Source: Coffea arabica (taxonomy: Eukaryota; Streptophyta; Magnoliopsida; Gentianales; Rubiaceae). Taken from it: a stretch of 64,000 bases of DNA. The notes below the pieces were generated by a model that saw nothing but the letters and a program-made list of their open reading frames with translations, did not search any database and was not told where the DNA came from. Numbering within the stretch: position 1 is the stretch's first letter; each line of letters opens with the position of its first letter. The DNA is taken from contig NC_092317.1 of NCBI RefSeq assembly GCF_036785885.1, positions 746,501-810,500 of the forward strand, written 5' to 3'. A program made the translations under genes and the position numbers. This document shows, one piece after another, positions 3,432 through 34,137 of this stretch.

Positions 3432-6015
3432 ATGTCAAGGTTCCGTGGATTATGGCAGGCTTCTGTTAATGCTACTAAAAAAGGTACGAGATAACTTTCA
3501 ACTACTGTTCGGATTGTGGTGTCAATATCTAAGTACAAAAATTCCTCTTTGTTTGCTCTTTTAGAGAGCAATTGCTTTCACATGTCTGTTGTTAGTTACC
3601 ATGAATACTATGCATCATGAGGCATCTTCAGTGCTACCACATAGTTTGTTGTATTCAGGAAGTTTCTTATCTGTTTTCCTATTCGTCCTCCGTCAGACTG
3701 ACAGTCCATGTGATTTTTAATTGCTGCTGGTAAGTATATCTAAGATATGTTGCATGTGCGTTCCATTCAGATCTTCAACTCGGGTATGTTTGTCCAGTAC
3801 TTTGACGTCTCAAGGCCAGTTGGTCATTCTATTAATCTTACTGATTAAAAGGTTAAGTATGTTGTTGGATGCCAGAATAATTTGGAGCTTCCACTTTTAA
3901 GTTTTTGTCAATGATTCATGAGTTTAAGCATGTCTGTGTATGACCTTGTTCCGCTCATAGGTCGTCGCTGCATTTCTCTTTGCAAAGTGATGCCTTAGTA
4001 TTCTTGTATGCTCCTCCCGAGAGACTCTCTCCGCTTATTTCTGCCATCATGGTTGTCTTTTTGCTTTAGCTTTCACTATGATATAACTGATCACGGGTTT
4101 TATCATTATATGGTTATGTATTTGCTTGGAGTAAATCATGTTTTTTACATGGTTCATTTGAATATCTCTTCATGTTCTCTATCTGGTTCACTTATTTGCC
4201 CTGTTCGCATCTTGCAGCTCTAACTTGGAACGTCGATGACTGGATTCCACCAAGTGAAAAATACATATTTAGCTTTAATTCAAAGGATGAGCTTAAAAAG
4301 TGGCATCTCTATTCCGATTCCGAGTATGGAGGTGTGTATTGACAGTTATAGGTGTGAGTGCCAGAATTTTCTTATACAAGATTCTTTATGGTTCTTGTTT
4401 TTGTCAGTTAATCTAACTGCTCTTTTGGGTTCATATTTCATGTACTTTGTTCTAAAAAAAATCTGTGATACATACATGGGGCTACATAGATCTCTAGAAC
4501 ATCGTGAAAGAAGAAAGTGCACTAATGTTTCTCAGAGTTGAAGCATGATATTTTACTGAATTTACCAGTTTTTCCCATTTGTCAATTTTTTTGCTTAATG
4601 AAGACAGTTTGCTTTGTTACATGCTGTACTTGTGGAATTTGTCAGGGAACTCATGTATTTGTTGTTTATAATGTGCCAGGTCTGTCTACAGCATCTCTAG
4701 AAATCAAAAATGTTGGAAATGCATCAAGTGTTACTACCGGTCTGTAAAATTTTACAGCCTCTTGCCACACTGCAGCTTGAATTTGCTTTTCCTTCAGTTG
4801 CCCATTTTGTACACATTGTTGTACTTAGATACTTTCATTGTAGGGTAATTAAGTAATGACTAATATAAGGCCTCATCAGCTAAATTAAAAACTTCCTGTG
4901 GTTTACATTAAATGTGTTAAATGTCTTGTTGAGCTACTGAAAATTGAAAATCTAGTTCATTAAGCATTCAGAAAATGAGGCTAGTGATACAACATCTCAT
5001 CGGCTATTACGAGTCTGCATTATAAGTATATATTTTGGTTTCTTAATTTATGCCTTTATTTTGTGTAGGAATATTTTCTGGGAACCTTTCTTCTGATCTT
5101 TCTGAGGGTTCAAGGTGGAACATCAGTCGAAGTGGCTTCTGTGGCATGCGTTCTAGAAAGGTAACGGCTATCCCAACATGCTTAGGCATCCAGAAACATA
5201 GATTAATAAGACTGCAATGAGTGTAATCCACATGCATCTTTTCCAAATTTTATTCATATTCCATGGCTTTGCTTGTGTAATTATTTTTCGCTCTCTCCTT
5301 TCCCAGTTTGATGGCTTTATTGACTTGGAATCATATGACACAATAGCTCTAAAACTTAAAGGAGATGGGAGATGCTATATTTCTACTGTGAGTTCCACAC
5401 TTCATTTCTGACTTGCAATTATCTTTAGTGGCATTCGTTTTGTATGCTGGGCCGGTTGTGGTATTCATTTCTGTGGGGAACTGTGCATGCATAAACCAAT
5501 CAAAATGGGTGCATAGAAGCAATAGGGAGGTGATTACCATCCCTTAATTGACTATGAGGTTGGAAAGAGATTGCTGAGCCTTATTTCAATGTAAGTGCAG
5601 ATTTATACGGAGAATTGGGTGAATTCTCCAGCACAACATGAAGATAACTCGTGGCAAGCATTTGTCTTTGTGCCTAAAGACAACTGGTATATAGCTAAGG
5701 TAAGTGTCCTTCGGCTCTTTTCCTTCTTGCATTAAGAAATCAGGACCACATTAACTGAATAAATATATTTCCTTGAATATGGTTTACTTCTTAGTTGCTG
5801 AATTTAGGTTACGTTGTGCTTTACAGATACCCATTGCTCGGTATTTGCCAACGTGGAGAGGGAATGTTATTGACGCAAATTTGGAGATGAATCCTTCTCG
5901 AGTTGTTGGCATGTCGTTTTCTGTTAACGCAGAAGGTGGAGTTCCAGGTGCTAGGACTGGTCCAGGTGATTTTCGAGTGGAAATCGATTGGATCAAAGCC
6001 TTTAGAACGCAGTGA
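3432..6015 (+). CDS. CIA30: CIA30-family complex I intermediate-associated protein 30 (NDUFAF1 homologue)
   Basis: Seven coding exons join in frame: 3432-3483, 4218-4331, 4680-4739, 5069-5160, 5307-5387, 5601-5699 and 5827-6015, giving 228 residues. An untranslated exon probably ends at 2216 and splices to 3407. The protein starts [20 protein letters not shown] and continues with the CIA30 domain: [19 protein letters not shown], a GIFSGNLSS block, [47 protein letters not shown] and a closing [15 protein letters not shown]. Length and motif order fit plant CIA30-like proteins. In animals and fungi the family helps assemble the membrane arm of mitochondrial complex I; the same role here is inferred. 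All borders are GT/AG. I chose the ATG at 3432 because it opens the frame in the exon that carries the conserved N-terminal block. Confidence 0.88.
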
Positions 6016-13807: not shown

Positions 13808-14632
13808 GCCAGTGTTGTTAGACTCGAATCAGATCGGTTGCTTCGATATCGGTCTGATTGTGAATTGGCTTTCTTTTCAAGTTGATTTGGAGAAAAAAAA
13901 ATGTTTTGGTTAAAAATCAGTTAAAACAGTCAAAATTTGGTTAAATTAGTGATTTCAGTTCGACTGATTGATCTTATTCTCAAATTTTTCTTTCTTCTCT
14001 CTTTCAAACATAATTTGAATTATCGAAATTGTAACACATTCATTTATTAATAGGAATAAGAAAACGTCACTCACTTAGTGTAAGTATCAAAATCACTCGC
14101 TTTTATGAATGATCTTTAAATCAATATGTTTTCGTTCCTATGATCTTATTAATTTAGAATTAGTGATTTTAACTTGCATTAATTTATTTTAATTTAGTTT
14201 TTCAAGCAGTTTTGGTGAATGGACATATTTTAGTCTTGAATTTACATTTTTATATACAATCATTAGGTGTATATTTAGGCCTTGTTTGGATTGCCGGTTT
14301 CCGTCGAAAAATTACGTCGTTTTCTTTGATCACATTTCCCTATTACCTTTTTCCCTCACATACATCAAATCGCTACAGTAATTTTTCCATGAAAAATCAC
14401 GGAAAATGCAATCCAAACACAACCTTAATTGCTAGTCTAATATTTTTGAAACATTTTTTTATAATTGACCAAATATACTAAAGAACTTAATTTCAATATT
14501 TTTGAAACTTATAAAAATATATAAATAATTATAACATCATATTGATGTCAACAAATTTTTAAAAACGGTTCAACCGATTCTACCAGTTGACCTCTGATGT
14601 AATAGTTTGGCAAATTTAATAACATTAGCCGC
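13808..14632. repeat. possible decayed transposon with short inverted ends
   Basis: The left side begins GTGTTGTTAGACTC and is followed by ATCGGTT-type blocks. The right side has matching blocks in opposite orientation (AACCGATTC, then TAACATTA). This resembles a common plant repeat with such ends. The match is short and no target duplication is visible. Confidence 0.3.
14278..14424. mobile_element. Tourist-like MITE copy 1 (PIF/Harbinger), TSD TTA
   Basis: The element is 147 bp, flanked by TTA at 14275-14277 and 14425-14427. It begins GGCCTTGTTTGGATTGC and ends in the near reverse complement GCAATCCAAACACAACC. The TTA duplication and this type of TIR are typical of PIF/Harbinger Tourist MITEs. 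It is non-coding and very similar to the copy at 16653-16799. Confidence 0.85.
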
Positions 14633-15881: not shown

Positions 15882-16652
15882 GGACTGATTGATACTCTGA
15901 TAGCCTAAGTAGAGGATGGCGGAATGTAAACTTGGGCTAATTTAGATTTGGGCCGGCCACCAATGGGTTGGCCCCGAAGAAATCACGTCTCACCGACTGT
16001 GCTGATTCTTGATATAACCCATTTGGCTCACCCTTTTAATAGCTCATCTATGCCATCCTTTACGCACGCACAAATGGGGAATGGAAACGCACGAGCCCGT
16101 ACGGAATGAAGACCGGTTGTTAACTGGAACATGGGATCCGTCTCAATTGCTTCAAAATAATTCTGCAAATCGAATTTGTTAATAGTTCGCATATCCATGC
16201 GTACACCCATATTTGTTTGCTTGTTAAAAAAAATAATAATAAAAAAAACTAGGGGACATGCGCTTTGATTTTGTCACAAAATGCAGAGATATAATCGAGG
16301 GTGATTATTTAAAGAAGAGAAAGCAGCAGAAAAAAAATGGCGTGTAATCAAACTCTTTATCGCATCTAAATGCGCGGCTAAAGAGTGATAACTTGATCTT
16401 GATATGTGTTTAGCAGTGCGTATTTAGGAAACTTTTTTTTTTTTCAAATGTTAGTGCAAATGGAAGGAGATTACATCCATTAATCACGAGGCTTCGACTT
16501 TGAAATCCATGAAAACAAAAAGAAGTACATTGGGAGAGAAAAACTTCTCAATCGTAAGAAAATCAAAACAATTCAAGCAAGATTAATCGCAAACATAAAA
16601 TAAATGATGCGAGGACTTGTGATTTATATCAAACACGTACTTGGAAAACTTA

Positions 16653-16799
16653 GGCCTTGCTTGGATTGCTGTTTTCCGTAGAAAAATTTCGTCATTTTTC
16701 GTGAACACATTTCCCTATTAACTTTTTTCCTCACATACATCAAATCGCTACAGTAATTTTTTCATGAAAAATGACGGAAAATACAATCCAAACGGGACC
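16653..16799. mobile_element. Tourist-like MITE copy 2, TSD TTA
   Basis: Again 147 bp, with TTA at 16650-16652 and 16800-16802. It begins GGCCTTGCTTGGATTGC and ends ACAATCCAAACGGGACC. The internal core (ACATACATCAAATCGCTACA) is shared with the copy at 14278, as is the terminal GACGGAAAAT-type sequence. No coding capacity. Confidence 0.85.
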
Positions 16800-21257: not shown

Positions 21258-24200
21258 GGGTACGTTTGGTTCCCCATAGAATTGGAGTGTAGAATTGGAA
21301 TTGGAGCTCCAATTTCAATTCTTGTGTTTGGGTACTATCTTTCCTGTAGAATTAGAATCGAATTACAATTCCAAATTGATCGAATTCCATGGTTCCAATT
21401 CTTTGGCTGGACCAAAGAATTCCAATTCCAATTCCACAACTAAACGGGTCCACACGCGGATCTAGTATGGGTCAAAAATTAAAATCGGGTCAAAGGATAT
21501 TGGCACCCCTTTCTTCCTGTCTAACTCACCATTTTCCTCAGCCGCTAGGGCTCTGCTCTCCACCATCACTTCCACCTGCAATCCTAATATCTTACCTTTC
21601 CCACCACCGTCTCCCCCCTGCCTTCCATTTCTCTGGCCACTTCCTCCATTCTTCGCCACTCTCGCCACTGTCCACCCCAAATTTCAGACACATTTAGGGC
21701 TTGTGAGACACCCAGGAAGGATAATGCGAACGCAACACAGCAGAGGAGCACCTTTTGGTCTCTGAGATTTTGCCGCTACTATTGTCCCGAATTGAAATGG
21801 CCTGTGCGGAACTTTGAGCCTAAAGATGTACTAACACATGGCAACCTCGAATAGGGTACCGGTGGTTCGCGCTAAACACCCATCATATTAGGGAAATTAC
21901 AAGCCAAGTTGGTAAGAGTTGTTTCTTAATTTTTCCAGCATCAAAATAATCTACTATCAGAATAATCTCTTAATCTTTCCAGCATCTTTCTAGCACAAAA
22001 TTATTTTTTTGCTTCAAAAAAAAAAGAAAATTATGATTAATTTTTTCAATTAATCATTGGTTATGGGCTTTATTACATAGCTTTTTTTTCATTGGATACA
22101 TTGCAATGGTTTGTTTTGTTTTGTGAAGGTAAATTTGTCTAAATTTTTGCCAATCAAACAACATTTTTTTTTTTTGTATTTTCTGATATTTTGCTCTAGT
22201 ATTTTTGGCTTCTAGATTTATGCTGTTAATAAGGATTAAAAAAAAAAGCACAAGTTGATCGTTTGTTTCCTTTTTCTTATTTTGGGTTTGAGTTCAATTA
22301 GTTAAATCGAGTCCAAGTTTTAGCTTGTTGGAATATATAATGTTAGTTTAAAATCATATTGGTGATGAAGATGAAAGGGGTAATCTCGTATGTCTTCCTT
22401 AAAATGGTTTTTTGAGATCTATTAGAAGCTTTTGCATTGTGGAACCACAAATTGATACTGCATTTGGATTCTACACTGAAAGATGAGATATTTAGCTGTG
22501 TTATGTAGAATTTCAGCTGATTATCCATCCATAATTTTAAGGATGCCACTCCATTAGAGCTTCCCTCTAAATGAGACTCTACTAAATCTTTCCTTTTGAT
22601 GAGACTCATAGAAGGCTTTAGAAGGATTTTGATGTTTCTCGTAGCCAATTAGTCTTGTTTCTAGAAAGAAAGCTTTGTGCACATAAGTGATGATCTTAGC
22701 AACATCTCCAAATTGCTTTTGCAAAAAGGTTCCGTCCAAATAAGTCAGCATAAGTTCTTCATTTAACATATGTATGGATTTTTCTGGTGCATATTTGCCT
22801 CTCACTTTTAGTTCTATAATGCAGTGGCTGTTGAATCTATTCTTAAGATAGTGTCAGATTAAAAAATCTTCTTAAAACCAGTTCTACTCTTCTTAACTTA
22901 GTATCTAGAATCATAGAAGGAATCACAAATTTACTTTGACAGAGCGAATTTTTAGTTCTATACTACAGTTGTCCTGCAGTTCTTTGGTGTATGTTTCTGT
23001 ATATAATCAATTGTTACGCATATTTTAAAGCTTATGTGGTGTAACAGTTGGGCCTTCCCTGCAATTCATTGCTAGTTAGGAAATTGTAAATAGCTATCTT
23101 TATCTCACACACACACATATATAGAGGAGTTTCAAGGGGAAGATAATTAATCTTTTGTTCTGTAACTCACAGAATTGAGTGTAATAGTTTCCCAAGCTTG
23201 TTTTTCAAGGCAAAATGGGCAGTACCAAATTGAAACACTAACCTGATCATAGCAATGAATCACAGAAGCTAATAATTATGTTTACCAACAACTTGCACAA
23301 ACTAATGAATTACAAAATTGTAGCTATTTCCTAAGCGATCTCTAAAGTATTAAAGGTGTATAAGCCAATATATTTGTTTCTGTCAATAGTTGTATTCACA
23401 AGCTGTAAATGTAATATTTCAGGAAAGGCAAAAATATTATTGCAGATTATTATGTCAGAGGTTTCATTAGCTATCATTTTAGCTTCAATTGACTATGTAG
23501 AATTTAACACTCACTTTTTAAAATTTGGTCTTTTGACTTACCTTTTCTTATTGTTGTCGTGATTTTGAATTGCAGAATTTGGATATTGACATGGATAAGG
23601 AAGGAGACGAGCAAAAAACAAAAAAGAGAAAAGTGGTAGTTGCAAATTATATGGTAACAGTAGCCACATTAGTAGTTTGGTGGCATGAGAAACATATAGT
23701 AAAGGAGCCTTACTTGGACTTTAAAGTAACACGTGAAATATATCTAAGGCGTCTTTACTATGGAAACAATAGAGTTTGTGTAGAGCAACTTAGACTCAAT
23801 AAACATTGTTTTACTGTTTTATGTACAAATTTAAGAGAGCATTGTGGGTTGAGGGATACAAGAAATATTACTGTTGAAGAAGCAGTTGCAATGTTTCTCT
23901 ATGTTCTTGCTCATAACTTTAAGAATCGCACTGTCAATTTTAATTTCATAAGATCAGGTGAGACAGTTAGTCGATACTTTAATATAGTTCTATGTGCTAT
24001 CATAAAATTGGGGAGACACTATCTTATCCAGCCTGAAACGGAAATGGAAGGTTACGAGCATGAAAAGTGGGAATGGTTTCAGGTAATCAATAATTTTTTA
24101 TATTTGTTAATGAAGATAATATCTACAAGATTCATCAACTTATGATATTTTGTTTATAATACAGGATTGTCTTGGAGCGTTAGACGGTACTTATGTTAAA

Positions 24201-24767
24201 GTACATGTTCTTCTTAGAGATCAAGGAAGATATAGGAATAGGAAGAATGAGATAGCAACAAATGTTTTAGGTGTATGCTCCCGTGACATGAGATTTACAT
24301 ATGTATTGCCTGGATGGGAAGGTTCTGCAGCAGATAGTAGAGTTCTACGGGATGCGTTAGATTAGATCAGATCCTTTTTTATTTTTGCAAAAAAGGAACT
24401 AATTTTTTTTTCTTTTAAAGCTTTATTAACAATTAGTTAAATGCAAGAAAAAATAAATTATTAAAGGTACTAATTGATTTTTTCCTTAAAGCTTTAGTAA
24501 CAATTAGCTAAATGTTAAAAAATTATTATATAGTAAAAAAAAGAAATTTTTTATGTAAGGAAATATTAGTTGGAAACAATTCTAATTCCTAATGAATTCT
24601 TCTCTCATACAAACAAAGAATTTGGAATTTCAAATAAATTCCATATCAATTCTATGCATTTCCCAAACGAAAGAATTGAAATGATTTGGAATTCCAATTC
24701 ATAGAATTCCAATTCTATAGAATTTCAATTCTAATTCAATTATAATTCTGTAGAACCAAACGTACCC
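21258..24767 (+). mobile_element. PIF/Harbinger element copy A, internally deleted, TSD TTT
   Basis: The left end begins GGGTACGTTTGGTTCC and the right end finishes ACCAAACGTACCC, flanked by TTT at 21255-21257 and 24768-24770. The 3-bp duplication and the transposase identify PIF/Harbinger. The subterminal regions are full of AATTGGAATTC-type motifs arranged in both directions. The 3' half matches copy B in inverse orientation, but about 1 kb is missing at about 24375, which removes the last transposase exon. The segment from about 21700 to 23540 is unlike copy B. It holds two overlapping - strand ORFs (22343-22648 and 22554-22805) that I do not recognise. Confidence 0.9.
23591..24365 (+). 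pseudogene. truncated PIF/Harbinger transposase (copy A)
   Basis: The first exon, 23591-24082, is the same length (164 codons) as in copy B and almost identical in sequence, including the KKRKVVV nuclear-localisation-like run and the WWHEKHIVKEP block. The second exon begins at 24165 and keeps the first catalytic Asp ([11 protein letters not shown]) and [18 protein letters not shown]. It then stops at a TAG directly after RDALD, at 24365. The downstream exon with the second Asp and the Glu is deleted. The predicted 230-residue product keeps the helical N-terminal region and half of the catalytic fold. It cannot be an active nuclease but might still bind DNA or partners. Confidence 0.88.
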
Positions 24768-25827
24768 TTTGTAATTTTGGGTTAGAATCTTATCCTGAAC
24801 TTGAATTCTCGTGATTTGTCCGAGATAGCTGCGTGGGGTCGTAGCGCACTTCTCCGGTTTGGTCTGCCGGTTCGGATCTTAAATGTTCGAATCAGGGCAT
24901 GTTCCAGGTTATGAAAAAAGAAAAAAGAAGGTTTAATTGCAAATATTAACGTACGTTAAGGCTGAACATGAATGAATTTCTTCCGGACCCAGAAAACGCA
25001 CTAGAGCCGTTGTACTTACATATGAAATCAAACTTACCCTATTCTTTCTGATCTTAGGGTACGTTTGGTTCTACAGAATTAGAATTGAATTAGAATTGAA
25101 ATTCTATAGAATTGGAATTCTATGAATTGGAATTCCAAGTCATTTCAATTCTTTCGTTTGGGAAATGCATAGAATTGATACGGAATTTATTTGAAATTCC
25201 AAATTCTTTGTTTGTATGGGAGAAGAATTCATTAGGAATTAGAATTGTTTCCAACTAATATTTTCTTACATAAAAAATTTCTTTTTTTTACTATATAATA
25301 ATTTTTTAACATTTAGCTAATTGTTACTAAAGCTTTAAGGAAAAAACCAATTAGTACCTTTAATAATTTATTTTTTCTTGCATTTAACTAATTGTTAATA
25401 AAGCTTTAAAAGAAAAAAAATTAGTTCCTTTTTTGCAAAAATAAAAAATTCTTTTTTTAAAAAAAATTAAATTATATTAAATAAAAAATAATTGTATATT
25501 CTAACTTAAAAAGTAGTTAATATTTATCGAGTTAAAACCTTGATACGTTTTTAAAGTTAAGAACTTTAAATTTTAGAAAATCAAAAGCCTACTCTATGAT
25601 ATGAATTGGGAGGAAGGTCATAACTTGTACCTATTATAAATATTTGAGTTTTGTATCTTACAAGAAATTTCAATATAGGAATACAAGAAATAGAGGAATA
25701 CGCAAACAAAGTGTTTTTAGCCAAAAAAAAAAAAAGAGAAAGAAAAGCACAATTATACATTGCTACTATTTTTCAATAAATGGCCATTCTAATATGAAAT
25801 TAAGTTCGAATAAATTCCTATCAAATT

Positions 25828-27262
25828 TCAACTTCCATGATGGCCTTGTCTAATTTGATAGTCAATAAACATTGCTCGTGCTAAAGCATTCCTAAATTGT
25901 GTCCACTCGCTAGTTGGTTGTACTGTTCGAATTCGATTCTCGTTAACATCATTTACACCACCATCATTATTTGGACCATCATCTTCCATTCCATTTTCCT
26001 CATCTTCATCTTCCATTTCATCTTCATCATCAACCTCATGTTGTACTCTTCGCATCTCAGCATCAACTTCATCCAAGTAAGGGTCATTTGGTTGTTCTAC
26101 TCGAATAAGGTTATGAAGGATGGCACATGCATTAATTATCATGACATGAGTCTTAACATCAAAAAAAGATGCATCTCTCAAAATGGCCCACCGCTTCTTG
26201 AACAAACCAAATGTCCTTTCAATCACATTTCGAGCAATTGAATGTCGAAGGTTGAATAACTCTTTAAAATTTTGAGGCTTGCTCCCACTAGCAGACCACT
26301 CGCTAAGATGATATCTAACTCCCCTATATGGAGCTAAGAAACCGGAGCTATTTGCATAACCCGCATCAACAAGAAAGTACTTGCCTGTAATGTTAGACAA
26401 CAAATTATTACTCATTTATAGTTAAAAGAAAAAAAAACACTTGATATCTAATTGTCACATACCCTTGGGAACAATTAATGGATCTGATCTAACTAACGCA
26501 TCCCGTAGAACTCTACCATCTGCTGCAGAACCTTCCCATCCAGGCAATACATATGTAAATCTCATGTCACGGGAGCATACACCTAAAACATTTGTTGCTA
26601 TCTCATTCTTCCTATTCCTATATCTTCCTTGATCTCTAAGAAGAACATGTACTTTAACATAAGTACCGTCTAACGCTCCAAGAGAATCCTGTATTATAAA
26701 CAAAATATCATAAGTTGATGAATCTTGTAAATATTATCTTCATTAATAAACATCAAAAAATATTGATTACCTGAAACCATTCCCACTTTTCATGCTCGTA
26801 ACCTTCCATTTCCGATTCAGGCTGGATAAGATAGTGTCTCCCCAATTTTATGATAGCACGTAGAACTATATTAAAGTATCGACTAACTGTCTCACCTGAT
26901 CTTATGAAATTAAAATTGACAGTGCGATTCTTAAAATTATGAGCAAGAACATAGAGAAACATTGCAATTGCCTCTTCAACAGTAATATTTCTAGTATCCA
27001 TCAACCCACAATGCTCTCTTAAATTTGTACATAAAACAGTAAAACAATGTTTATTGAGTCTAAGTTGCTCTACACAAACTCTATTGTTTCCATAGTAAAG
27101 ACGCCTTAGATATATTTCACGTGCTACTTTAAAGTCCAAGTAAGGCTCCTTTACTATATGTTTCTCATGCCACCAAACTACTAATGTAGCTATTGTTACC
27201 ATATAATTTGCAACTACCACTTTTCTCTTTTTTGCTTTTTGCTCGTCTCCTTCTTTATCCAT
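25828..27262 (-). CDS. PIF/Harbinger-type DDE transposase, apparently intact
   Basis: On the - strand three exons, 27262-26771, 26688-26463 and 26384-25828, join in frame to 424 residues. Residues 1-160 form a helical N-terminal region rich in aromatic and basic residues, starting MDKEGDEQ with a KKRKVVV basic run. The catalytic core of the DDE_Tnp_4 / HARBI1-like fold follows: Asp171 in [17 protein letters not shown], Asp246 in YFLVDAGYANSSGFLAPYRG and Glu295 in RNVIERTFGLFKKRW. The Asp246-Glu295 spacing of 48 residues is usual for the family. The C-terminus is highly acidic (EDEMEDEDEENG). No internal stop or frameshift was found. Family members cut at 3-bp TWA-like sites, usually with a Myb/SANT-like partner protein; no such partner gene is visible here. 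The ATG at 27262 matches the start used in copy A. Confidence 0.9.
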
Positions 27263-27350
27263 GTCAATATCCAATTCTGCAATTCAAAATCATGACAACA
27301 ATAAGAAAAGGTAAGTCAAAAGACCAAATCATGCCAAACTAGCTATTAAT

Positions 27351-28180
27351 TCAAAAGACCAAATTAGCTATTGGAAAACTCGTACATGATGTATTAGGAT
27401 CAAAGCGCAAAGTTTTAGGTATCTGCCCGCTCTTATAAGGCCACGTTCTTGCACAATCTATCTCCAGCAAGCCTGTAAAACCAAGGGCATAATTAGATGT
27501 CACAATGGTGATTAAAATGAGACCCAAGTGATTCACAGTAACTAAACCAGCTTCTGGATACTCGGCTTCTAGTCTAGAATTCGGATGATGCCATAACTCA
27601 AGATTCACACCTCAGTTTGACAAGAAAAATGAAAAGTCTGGCACCCATTTTAAAACTCTACAACTAGCACCTCCAACAATCAACATTGTCCCATCAATTT
27701 CTATCATTTCTACAAACTCTGTAATGGATTAACTTGATTTGATTATCTTTATCACATACAGAAGTTAAAGAATCTAATCTGGTCGTTCAGTAATATAACA
27801 ACACATGAACCAACTACTAGCAGATATACTAAAGCTATAACAAGAAGAATAAGCGCTTCAAATTTTCATTGACCAGAGTACTAACACTTTCTCAAGCCAG
27901 AATAATATGTTAAGCAAGAGCATCAAAAACTGCACTAGAAGGCTTACCAGCAGATTTGTTTTGAGAAAGGAATTTCTCGACCACACCTTCATTCTGGGAA
28001 CAGTTAAACTGTTCCATCATAAAACGAAAAAGTATACTAATTAGTTGTACATCTTTACCCAGACACAAGATACAAGGCATTGTAATTTACTGAGAAATAC
28101 GGGAATATGCACCTGCAAGTGCTGTACACAAGAGATCCACCTACTTTGAGCAATCTGAAACCGTTGGATAGAAGTTGAAG
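27351..28180 (-). pseudogene. captured 3' exons of a NOP2/SUN-type RNA (cytosine-5) methyltransferase gene
   Basis: Three exons are readable on the - strand. Exon 28180-28113 encodes LQLLSNGFRLLKVGGSLVYS then TC, the NOL1/NOP2/SUN motif containing a catalytic cysteine. Exon 28008-27948 encodes QNEGVVEKFLSQNKSA, normally preceded by SLTVA; joining to the previous exon puts SLTV in a frame one base away from QNEG, so one base appears lost. Exon 27472-27351 encodes GLLEIDCARTWPYKSGQIPK then TLRFDPNTS and stops after IANLVF. This order matches the C-terminus of plant NSUN proteins. The rest of the enzyme, including the SAM-binding part, was not found. The fragment lies inside Harbinger copy B, in the same orientation as the transposase. 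Confidence 0.75.
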
Positions 28181-31100
28181 CTGAAACATATAGACAAGAG
28201 TAACGTGATGACCATATGGAATTATAAGATCCTTAGGATGGACAGAAGTTGAAATTGCAACTTATTGACAAGTAGCCCATATAAAATCAAGATATTGACC
28301 ATGGAACATAATTTTTTTCTCCATACAATGTATAAAAAACAGCTATTCAGTGGGATAATAGACAGAGAAGAGCATCTGACATCTCTTTGGAAGGTATCAA
28401 AAGCTGCCTAAAGCCCCTTTTGTCAATCCCTTTTTCTCTAGCAGCAATAGCTGTCCGAAGATGCAGGAATTAGATGATTTCTGCAGAGTGCTCTCTGATC
28501 AATGGGGTACTCTGGACATAAGTACACTATCACCAAGAGTACCAATGGTGGAAGATGTGGAATGCAGTGAAAAACATACTAGAGCGACAGTGAAAAACCC
28601 ACTTAATTTTTTAAAGTGATTATTATATTAATTTTTACAGTTAAGATAAACTGAACTTTGTTGTATAACCATCTACTGCAAACTTTTCCATACCTCAGAG
28701 AACTCTGTCCCAGGGATTTTCAATTGATTCATTCTTTACAGTCATAACTAAGCCTTCCAATCTGAAAAGGTTGTCATTAGTATCCCTGGGCAACAACCTA
28801 GTACGTATCAATCTTAGGAGCATGGCTTTGAGATCCCAAATTCCTCCAGATTTCATTCTAATTCTATCATTTCACACCCAAAATTTTTATGTCCAAATCG
28901 ATTAAAATATTTTATAACTTTAAAAAAATCCCCTGAAAATCATTTTTCATATGGGGTTCCACGTCTTTTTGTTGTAGTGCATTCCCGAGCAATTGTTGCA
29001 TCCGTGAGGCAAAAATATCATCTAAAACCTGCAAATCCGAATCTTTGTTGTCATGGTAGTATTTATCATATTACTGGATCTTATTAGACTCTCATCTTTA
29101 CTTCCATAAATCAAGGTCAAATCAGTTGGAAACCATTCAATTACTGGAATAAAAATTGTGAAATTTCTCCTCAAAACAACAAAGAAAATCATCACAACCA
29201 CTCTAATGTGAAACACTGACGATTTGGCCAGCAAAAGTATAACTCGAGCCAAGTTACCAAGTCAGCCTGCATTTTTCACTACCTTGCAAACATCTATAAC
29301 TATTTCAAGGATGAAAGACTTGCATCACATAGAAGATTCAAAGGATGATCAGATTATCCCTCTTTCCTTCTTAACACTCAACTTCGTATAGGGTGAATTT
29401 CAGTTAAAAACGTCATGCTTTTAATCTTTTAAACATTTGCAAATAATGGCTACTGCTTAAAGTGACTATCTGAATCCTGGAAGAATTAGCTCAACTTACT
29501 CGGAGCAGTCTTGCGATTGGTAAGGGATAGCTGGAGAAGCAAAAAGCGATGCCGGAGACGGTGGTGGAAGAGGCAAAATGTTAGGGTGGAGGTGAAGGCG
29601 ATGACGCAGAGCAGAAGCAGTTGCGGTTGAGGAAAAGTGATCGAGAGAGAGGGCTGCTTACCTAGTTGACCCGATTTTAATTTTTTACCCACAAGATCCG
29701 CGTGTAGACCCGTTTCGCAGGGTTTAGTTGTGGAATTGGAATTAGAATTCTTTTGGTCCAATAAAGAATTCAAATCATGGAATTGGACCCCTATAGAATT
29801 CAGATTCAATTCTAATTCTTTGACGGAAGCAGTATCCAAACAACAGATTTGGAATTGGGGCCCCAATTCCAATTCTAAATCTCAATTCCATGGGAAACCA
29901 AACATACCCTTAGAAGAATCGAAGTGGAAATGGTGGGGAAGACTCTTGGATTTCTCTCAGCTTTTGCAAGCGCTTTTAAACTTGAAGCCCAAAGCCATGA
30001 GCCCATTACTCTCACCTGAGGAATGCAGTACTGCTTGTTAACGGCGCCTTGTAAAAAATGACGTCTGCTAAGCCACCAACATATCCACGCCAGTACTTCT
30101 TTGGTTGCATCCATTTTACGTGAGAAGAGGTCCGTCCTCTTTTGTTTCTAGACTCCTGCTGACATCATCATCGCCATCGTCTGATCCCCAAAAGCCAGCA
30201 CCGCCACGTTTTTATCCCCTTCGGCTTCAGACAGTCGCTCTGTGCGACCCGCTAATATCAGCATCCCATTTTATAAATGCACTTTTTAGAAAAAGAAAAA
30301 AAAAAACAGTAGATCGCATCAATTTGATTTCGCTCCAACCCTAACACGAACCTTCCGGTTACTGAAAACGAAACTCGTATTTCACAAGTTCAAATCTCGA
30401 TGTTGATACTTAAGTTTGTATTGCGAAAAATTAAAGACCTTTCTAATTTTCGCATTTGCGAACATGTTGATACGTTGATTTAAACGCTTAAAATTAATTC
30501 TAAAGTATTGGAGAAAAGTTTTCAATAAAACCAAGAGAAAGCTCTCATTATTATTTGCTGAAATTTGTCTATCTAACTATTATTACAAGGTTATTTATAA
30601 TCAAAATAGCTAAACTAGTCTAAATTCGGATCAAACGTGAATTACATCACTTATTCCATTAAAATTACTAATCTAATGGTCCAAATAACTTATACAGCTA
30701 GCCATTTATTTCTAATAACCAACAATTAAGTAACTAAATAAAATATCCTAATTAATAGAACGACAATTAGAAAGAAAAAACCCTAAAAGTTAGTTATTTG
30801 AATCGAATCCGTGAAGGGATTGTGGGCAGAGATTGAACTAAGAAAATTGAAATGAAACGCGCTGCGACCCAATCTATGGGGCGGATCTATTAAGTCCCTT
30901 CTTCTTCAGCTTGGATCAACATGCAATGCTCAACCTCCTTCTATGTATTTGTAAGGTCCAAATTAATATTGAACGGAATGTTGATACTTGAATCGTTTGG
31001 CCCTTCGACAGCTTGCACTTCATCATCAAACCCCATTCGAGAATTGTTCAGTCTTAAACCAACTTGCATTTTCACAATGTCAAATTGATTGCTTTACTAT

Positions 31101-32949: not shown

Positions 32950-34137
32950 ATGGAAGACGACGAAGAAACTCAGTCACATCCATCGGGAGGTACCGGATCT
33001 CCGGTGTCACCGCGTCCCAACGGCAGGATAACGGTGACGGTGGCTGCTGTTCCGCCTTCTCAGAACACGCTAACTCTGGCGTTACCCATACAACATCATC
33101 AGCAGCAGACGAGGCCTACTGGAAATAGTGGAGGTGGTGGGAGGGAGGATTGCTGGAGCGAAGGGGCCACCGGGGTGCTAATTGACGCCTGGGGAGAAAG
33201 GTATCTAGAGCTCAGCCGGGGGAATCTTAAGCAGAAGCACTGGAAGGATGTCGCCGATATCGTCAGCAGCCGCGAAGACTACACCAAAGCCCCTAAAACT
33301 GATATTCAGTGTAAGAACCGGATTGATACCGTCAAGAAGAAGTACAAGCTGGAGAAGGCCAAGATCGCCGCCGGTGGTGGCCCCAGTAAGTGGCCCTTCT
33401 TTGAGAGGCTTGATCAGCTTATTGGACCTTCTGCTAAGCTTAACTCCTCCGTACTGGCTTCCGGGGGTGGCGCGGGGGCAGGGCCGTCCTACTCCGGAAG
33501 CCAAAGGGTAGTTCCTATGGGAATCCCGATGGGAGTTAGATCAGCTCCTCAGCTGAGGCAGCAGCAAGAGAAATTTCCACAACAGCACCTTCAGAAGCAG
33601 AAGCAGCAGTTCCGGAAACGGCCTCCCCCTCCTCCTGCGGTGGATTCGGATGAGGAGTCCGAGCCCGATGGTTCGCCTGACTCGGCTGATGATTTTCCAC
33701 CTGCAACGTACGAAAGGAAGAGGCCGAGGAATCAGCGGGAGCCGATGAATTTGGGAGGAGGAGTAAAGCCTGCTGGGCCTGGAACGAACAGGGGGAGAGA
33801 GGGAGGTGCAGATAAAGCAAGTGTTGTTGTGGGGAAGAATTGGGGGAATTCAGTGAGGGAGCTGACTCGAGCTATACTTAAATTTGGGGAAGCTTACGAG
33901 CAAGCTGAGAGCTCGAAGCTGCAGCAGCTGGTGGACATGGAAAAGCAGAGGATGAAGTTTGCCAAAGAGCTGGAATTGCAGAGAATGCAGTTCTTCATGA
34001 AAACGCAATTGGAGCTCTCACAGCTCAAGACCAGTAGTAGTAGGAGAGTTGGGAACAATAACCACCACCATCACAGCAGTAATAACATCAATGCCACCAC
34101 CCACACTAACAACCACCATAGTGATAGCAGTAACTAG
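32950..34137 (+). CDS. trihelix transcription factor, SIP1 clade (ASR3/ENAP/ASIL-like)
   Basis: A single uninterrupted frame of 395 residues; no intron is needed. After a low-complexity leader the trihelix domain starts at Trp69 ([20 protein letters not shown]), with the second helix at [17 protein letters not shown] and the third at [20 protein letters not shown], then [13 protein letters not shown] at about 147-159. The C-terminal 50 or so residues before the tail form the coiled-coil block typical of this clade: [36 protein letters not shown]. The centre has Gln-rich and acidic runs ([14 protein letters not shown]) and a basic [10 protein letters not shown] segment that could be a nuclear localisation signal. 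The extreme C-terminus is Asn/His/Thr-rich. Family members bind GT-type elements and act mainly as repressors, some with histone-modifying complexes. The exact orthologue is not resolved. Confidence 0.9.

Follow-up and report, generated by a model that had tools for sequence, protein, structure and literature searches.

RESULTS

The window, a stretch of 64,000 nucleotides (C8:746501-810500), was compared with the plant assembly searched as the genome (1.198 Gb, 131 contigs). It contains a PIF/Harbinger element, here called B, in which a transposase gene lies together with host gene DNA between the terminal inverted repeats (TIRs). A preliminary description of this DNA had announced a 4.85-kb element with TIRs and TTA duplications, and this is borne out with the following limits and 5' parts.

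25057..29909, minus strand: PIF/Harbinger element B, 4853 bp from TIR to TIR, with TIRs GGGTAYGTTTGGTT and 3-bp target site duplications (TSDs)
25054..25056: target site duplication TTA, low-coordinate side of B
29910..29912: target site duplication TTA, high-coordinate side of B
29498..29909, minus strand: 5' end of B, of the 'type I' subfamily, 98% identical to two C7 copies and 76% to copy A
28382..28592, minus strand: 'type II' sequence of the element that precedes capture 1 and is also present in relatives that lack NOP2/SUN (NSUN) sequence
26771..27262, minus strand: transposase exon 1, from the first ATG (MDKEGDEQ); there may be another exon further upstream
26463..26688, minus strand: transposase exon 2, with the first catalytic D, read by eye
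25828..26384, minus strand: transposase exon 3, with the second D and the E, read by eye

With regard to superfamily features, the three exons encode a DDE_Tnp_4-type transposase of 424 aa without internal stop (PF13359, E 4.3e-22), and 3-bp TSDs (usually TTA/TAA in the superfamily) with short TIRs are found at four NSUN-bearing copies. The third feature, the Myb/SANT protein ORF1, gave no match in B by tblastn at E up to 1, and B is therefore classed as a defective, probably non-autonomous member. Among 19 element sequences, the 143-residue ORF1 frame (PF12776, 1.6e-8) is complete in two (L029 and L033), present in part in L031, L035 and L048, represented by 14-15 residues in the C16 copy, L026, L032, L034 and L040, and without a match in B, the C21 and C19 copies, A, L027, L036, L037, L038 and L039. 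The exon-1 splice border of the transposase was looked for in L029 and L033 and was absent, and none of the element sequences examined has both genes clearly intact. Relatives with an open transposase frame lack a full ORF1, and among these sequences the two proteins seem to be split over different copies. Members of the superfamily need both ORF1 and transposase for movement (PMC2836001, in excerpt), and B, having no match to ORF1, is predicted to need help in trans; it probably moves with ORF1 protein from other copies, which perhaps also supply it with transposase.

Selection on the transposase was compared over seven frames of 1275 bases (21 pairs, small numbers; C16, L029, L033 and A left out). 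All six pairs that include L036 had dN/dS values of 0.23-0.52, which hints at past constraint. The 15 pairs without L036 gave 0.62-3.92 or had no silent change, and the open frame in B is for this reason weak evidence of function; B differs from L027 by one silent and six replacement changes, and from L031 by seven replacement changes and no silent one.

Upstream of the transposase lies a fragment of a NOP2/SUN methyltransferase gene.

27378..28385, minus strand: capture 1, intron-containing fragment of a NOP2/SUN methyltransferase gene; donor C13:7683376-7684219, homeolog at C14:9529816
28113..28180, minus strand: NSUN exon with the STCS motif; acceptor ..TTTCAG, donor GTGCAT
27948..28008, minus strand: NSUN exon 2, QNEGVVEKFL; borders ..GAACAG / GTAAGC; 1-nt deletion
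27378..27472, minus strand: last NSUN exon; acceptor ..TTACAG; the junction cuts it before the donor's GLFVAKF..stop
28240..28290, minus strand: 51-bp filler within capture 1, in neither genomic NSUN gene
28382..28385: 4-bp microhomology GAGA, element to capture 1
27378..27381: 4-bp microhomology GAGT where capture 1 gives way to element sequence, the actual 3' junction

Three minus-strand NOP2/SUN exons with GT/AG borders had been described from the letters alone, inside the element and in sense with an intact transposase; their coordinates proved exact, and the transposase frame has no internal stop. The hand-spliced NSUN peptide matches PF01189 (E 4.8e-11) and, in the PDB, methyltransferase chains (best MJ0026, E 2.7e-6; human NSUN4, 0.0016), while raw, unspliced 27351-28180 had no match in Pfam. 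The parental gene that was to be sought in the same genome is present at C13:7.683 Mb (98.7%; L024), with a homeolog on C14 (95.6%; L025). The element is 96.8% identical to the C13 donor over 28385-28291 and 98.7% over 28239-27378, as against 95.8% and 95.6% to the C14 homeolog over the same two stretches. In the C13 gene, further NSUN exon frames lie upstream in order (hand-joined, best PDB match 1ixk, 3.1e-17; human NSUN4, 5.6e-16), and the last exon continues to GLFVAKFTKLEI, followed by a stop. Of 954 ungapped capture 1 sites, 906 are identical, 32 separate C14 alone, seven are common to the B and C16 elements only, and private sites number four in C13, three in C16 and two in B; by this pattern the element groups with C13 and not with C14. 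A genome-wide PF01189 scan listed 10 matches, none of which falls at either genomic gene, both being split into short exons; the NSUN identity rests on the DNA match together with the PF01189 and PDB matches of hand-joined peptides. An NSUN6-like label was dropped, the PDB matches supporting no subfamily, and we use NOP2/SUN only. The intron alignment that had been proposed showed the introns of the C13 donor copied into the element, and capture therefore took place at the DNA level.

A translatable NSUN piece is not supported. Exon 2 has a 1-nt deletion relative to both genomic NSUN genes, and the resulting frameshift brings a stop after splicing, the spliced frame being STCSLTVPRMKVWSRNSFLKTNLLACWR followed by that stop. 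The deletion is present in all four element copies (B and C16 aligned; C21 and C19 identical to B). Two coding substitutions read off the alignment of the last exon of B with C13, S to C and C to Y, are both replacements. Since the frame is broken in all four copies, the cargo is regarded as a frameshifted passenger, presumably without function.

Two more host fragments lie between capture 1 and the 5' end of B.

28955..29499, minus strand: capture 2, a 545-bp piece of a host gene with several exons; donor C13:10566292-10566836 (99%), homeolog C14:12467050 (96%)
28593..28959, plus strand: antisense LRR-like host fragment in two pieces, common to element-like loci on C7 (two), C6 and C5

Capture 2, as read, runs from a splice-donor GT (GTAAGT, 29499) across an intron into the last coding exon, contains an acceptor before 29028, and differs from C13 at 4 of 538 sites. 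The splice donor near 29499 that had been attributed to the leader of the element does exist, but it belongs to this second captured host intron. A protein search shows no more than that the donor gene has several exons, with relatives of these on C19/C20 and C9/C10; DUF810/UNC-13 homolog would be a putative name for it. A PATROL1/UNC-13-like origin was not confirmed: a 60-aa piece had no match in Pfam, for a 248-aa piece the matches were limited to Lar_N (0.022) and Apolipoprotein (0.071) and did not reach the cut-off, none among the 25 genome matches listed for PF25761 (TPR_PATROL1) lies on C13 or C14, and a PDB search gave two unrelated chains (E 0.27).

The two sense donors are 2.9 Mb apart on C13 (7.68 Mb and 10.57 Mb), and their order and orientation there agree with those of the captures in the element. 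Independent captures need not give such an arrangement, which counts against two separate captures; the shared C13 origin may be chance or the trace of a former element site on C13.

The four loci sharing the LRR fragment (two on C7, one each on C6 and C5) carry neither capture 1 nor capture 2 in the 3.2 kb of each examined, and the fragment is therefore taken as older; some genome counts are lower bounds, for instance that for the capture 2/LRR region, in which 40 of 91 candidates were scored. A longer version in L048 matches LRR_1 (1.2e-11, for the L048 version; the piece in B is shorter). Matching DNA at C16:33.74 Mb and C15:39.49 Mb (260 bp at 97% and further collinear pieces), in genes or in elements, is only a lead as to its source. 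Internal deletions in the 28593-28959 part differ between B and the C16 copy, so neither simply descends from the other. In three transposase-bearing relatives, L027 (C15), L031 (C8) and L035 (C1), the sequence near the 5' end includes a host fragment with ankyrin repeats (a hand-joined peptide matches PF00023 at 1.4e-10), presumably akin to the ankyrin repeats of plant K+ channels. Gene capture thus recurs in this element family.

The ends of capture 2 overlap with the flanking element by 2 bp (GT) and 5 bp (GAACC). Microhomology of 4-5 bp is therefore present at three of the four sense-capture junctions (GAGA, GAGT, GAACC), the fourth being GT. Simulated random junctions had at least 4 bp in 2.1-2.2%, at least 5 bp in 0.7% and at least 2 bp in 18-19% of cases, and the 2-bp junction among the four is unremarkable. 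In the NSUN-less relatives L029, L032, L033 and L040, the 'type II' stretch is 211 bp long, and element sequence runs up to 28382 and again from 27381; between the equivalent points L029 has 624 bp of other sequence. The block ATTTGGTCTTTTGA, found at 27351-27364 and 27316-27329, had been proposed to mark the 3' junction by its repetition. It lies outside capture 1 and is ordinary element sequence: in a count that leaves out L028 and L030 (no TIR pair given), L047, L049 and L050, 15 of the 19 element sequences have it in two copies (four with NSUN, 11 without), three have a single copy, and it is absent from one partial sequence. Its doubling in the 11 sequences without NSUN led us to reject it as a capture footprint.

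Further copies with the same insert, another prediction to be checked, were found. The region 27330-28220 has 28 matches in the genome, of which four are full-length (B and the copies on C21, C19 and C16), two are the donors, with coverage of 1-843, and 22 extend over just 51-52 bp at the element border (loci examined, 15 of these 22). On C21 and C19, the element agrees with B at 4853/4853 bases. The C16 relative is 5349 bp long and matches B at 99.4% over 1122 and 98.9% over 3548 by BLAST pieces; a divergence of 115/4850 from a global alignment was dropped, as the aligner forces unrelated middle pieces together. All four carry both captures, each with its own TSD (TTA for B on C8, TCA on C21, TTA on C19, TAA on C16), which indicates that B moved after capture. 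Similarity to B stops at the element borders, except for a related Harbinger piece beside the C21 copy. This copy sits inside another Harbinger relative (L021 1310-1403 and 6257-6503), which is 98.9% identical over 94 bp on one side and 86.2% over 247 bp on the other. As the TSDs and flanks differ between copies, segmental duplication is unlikely to be their cause.

Empty sites, known from match coordinates, were obtained for two copies. The joined flanks of A and B match the homeologous C7:765024-765675 in one stretch (640/640 query bases, 82%), and for the C16 copy, C15 matches positions 1-528 of a 660-base query and so spans its junction at 330 (86%). The case that would have spoken against capture, an NSUN gene native to this locus, was looked for in this way and not found; given the continuous match to C7, the transposon was not inserted into an NSUN gene.

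B has a neighbor of the same family.

21258..24767, plus strand: element A, 3510-bp relative, TSD TTT, inverted to B, with a truncated transposase and no NSUN

A and B lie tail to tail and are 97% identical in the transposase region, 98% at the 3' end and 76% at the 5' end. Together they form a long inverted repeat over 23579-27274, with 782-nt arms that are 98% and 393-nt arms that are 96% complementary, the latter 287 nt apart. Judged by its sequence, a read-through transcript of A and B would fold into long transposase dsRNA and might silence the family; Mu killer is a comparable case for such dsRNA. The window also has a 144-bp direct repeat (14275-14418 and 16650-16793, 89.6% identical) and, near the elements, a 395-aa open frame on the plus strand (32950-34137) that looks, we assume, like a trihelix-type transcription factor.

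DISCUSSION

In this study, we find that B is a PIF/Harbinger transposon into which pieces of host genes were copied, that the composite then moved, and that its cargo is a passenger, a reading to which we give a probability of about 0.88. The earlier proposal that a transposase-bearing Harbinger captured host NSUN exons is supported by the donor gene, the other copies and the empty C7 site. The structure, the donors and junctions, the empty sites for two copies, the four individual TSDs, the frameshift and the lack of an ORF1 match are matters of observation, and the capture event is seen solely as its product. Gap repair or replication with template switching at short matches fits this product best. 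Repair synthesis at a gap inside the element would have switched template at 2-5 bp matches into the C13 NOP2/SUN gene, and in a separate switch into the second C13 gene and back to the element; the copied products would have replaced element sequence with loss of the ORF1 (Myb/SANT) region. The 5' half of one element subfamily is joined to the transposase half of another, and the composite would later have moved to C8, C19 and C21 as identical copies, and in a related version to C16. Several steps, for which more than one order is conceivable, are evident from the 51-bp filler and the mosaic 5' half. Gap repair is thus what we infer as mechanism; end joining or replication-fork switching would also fit the junction microhomology. 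By identity, the divergence of C13 and C14 would come first, followed by capture, the split from the C16 copy and finally the identical C8, C19 and C21 copies.

It is conceivable, though in our judgment improbable, that splicing into element transcripts, with a chimeric protein or a regulated transposase message as the outcome, is the reason why the captured sense exons and their splice sites persisted. In favor of this, the first bases of capture 2 form a 5' splice site and an acceptor comes with it, the NSUN exons retain their AG/GT borders, the transposase and the two captures share one orientation, and the L036 pairs hint at past constraint; against this role stand the 1-nt deletion that breaks the NSUN frame in all four copies, the two replacement substitutions in the last exon of B, and the 15 transposase pairs without L036, small as those numbers are. 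Similarly doubtful is a broader version, in which the lineage would have traded ORF1 for a stack of sense host introns and exons with working splice sites, and these captured sites would shape transcripts or shield the element, thereby aiding the recent spread of the three identical copies. That the captured 1 kb might act through small RNAs, by silencing NSUN in trans or by shielding the element from silencing, seems to us improbable as well, even though four copies closely match a host gene over about 0.95 kb and epigenetic conflict after gene capture is a topic in the literature sampled. There is next to no chance that the transposon inserted in or beside a resident NSUN gene, as exons with good splice sites adjoining a transposase in the same sense might suggest, given that the exons lie inside both TIRs, that the same 4853-bp NSUN element is on C19 and C21, that the homeologous C7 site is continuous with the joined flanks, and that the gene proper is on C13 and C14.

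The capture reading, which we prefer, provides a base-resolved record of serial PIF/Harbinger gene capture within one genome, joining donors, homeologs, junction microhomologies, NSUN-free relatives, two empty sites and recent identical copies. Should the element be transcribed, chimeric messages that use the captured splice sites could be tested for directly. B has host gene DNA between its TIRs, is multicopy and shows short breakpoint microhomology, as do Pack-TYPE and Pack-TIR elements (PMC8903248, PMC8277862, both in excerpt); for animal Pack-TIRs, template switching has been proposed, with a median microhomology of 2 bp (PMC8277862, in excerpt). However, Pack-TYPE elements are described as non-autonomous (PMC8903248, in excerpt), whereas B bears its own 424-aa transposase frame; it acts like a Pack-TYPE element yet falls outside that class. 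Moreover, packFinder calls any element with a transposase match 'autonomous', so elements like B escape Pack listing, and a pipeline that equates the two would have a blind spot for such captures (PMC8903248, in excerpt). In the sections available of a 2026 review of plant gene capture (PMC13317346), the word Harbinger is absent.

B also resembles KI-MULE and CACTA elements, transposase-bearing plant elements that carry a host-derived domain, there ULP; in contrast, these belong to other superfamilies and their protease domain recurs across families, while the NSUN frame of B is broken (PMC2528002, in excerpt). The closest architecture is that of the grapevine Pifvine-3 PIF elements, whose 5' region contains exons and introns of host genes (Benjak et al., 2008, PMC2528002, in excerpt) and which, like B, are present in several copies, a likeness drawn from the architecture as described. 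The first view, that a copy which keeps its transposase beside captured host DNA is unusual, is therefore not supported. Unlike what the same excerpt gives for Pifvine-3, B has no ORF1, its donors and junctions are resolved at single-base level, and it belongs to another plant and contains a stack of three host fragments. The architecture of B is not new, and what this study adds to it is the full dissection and the three stacked sources.
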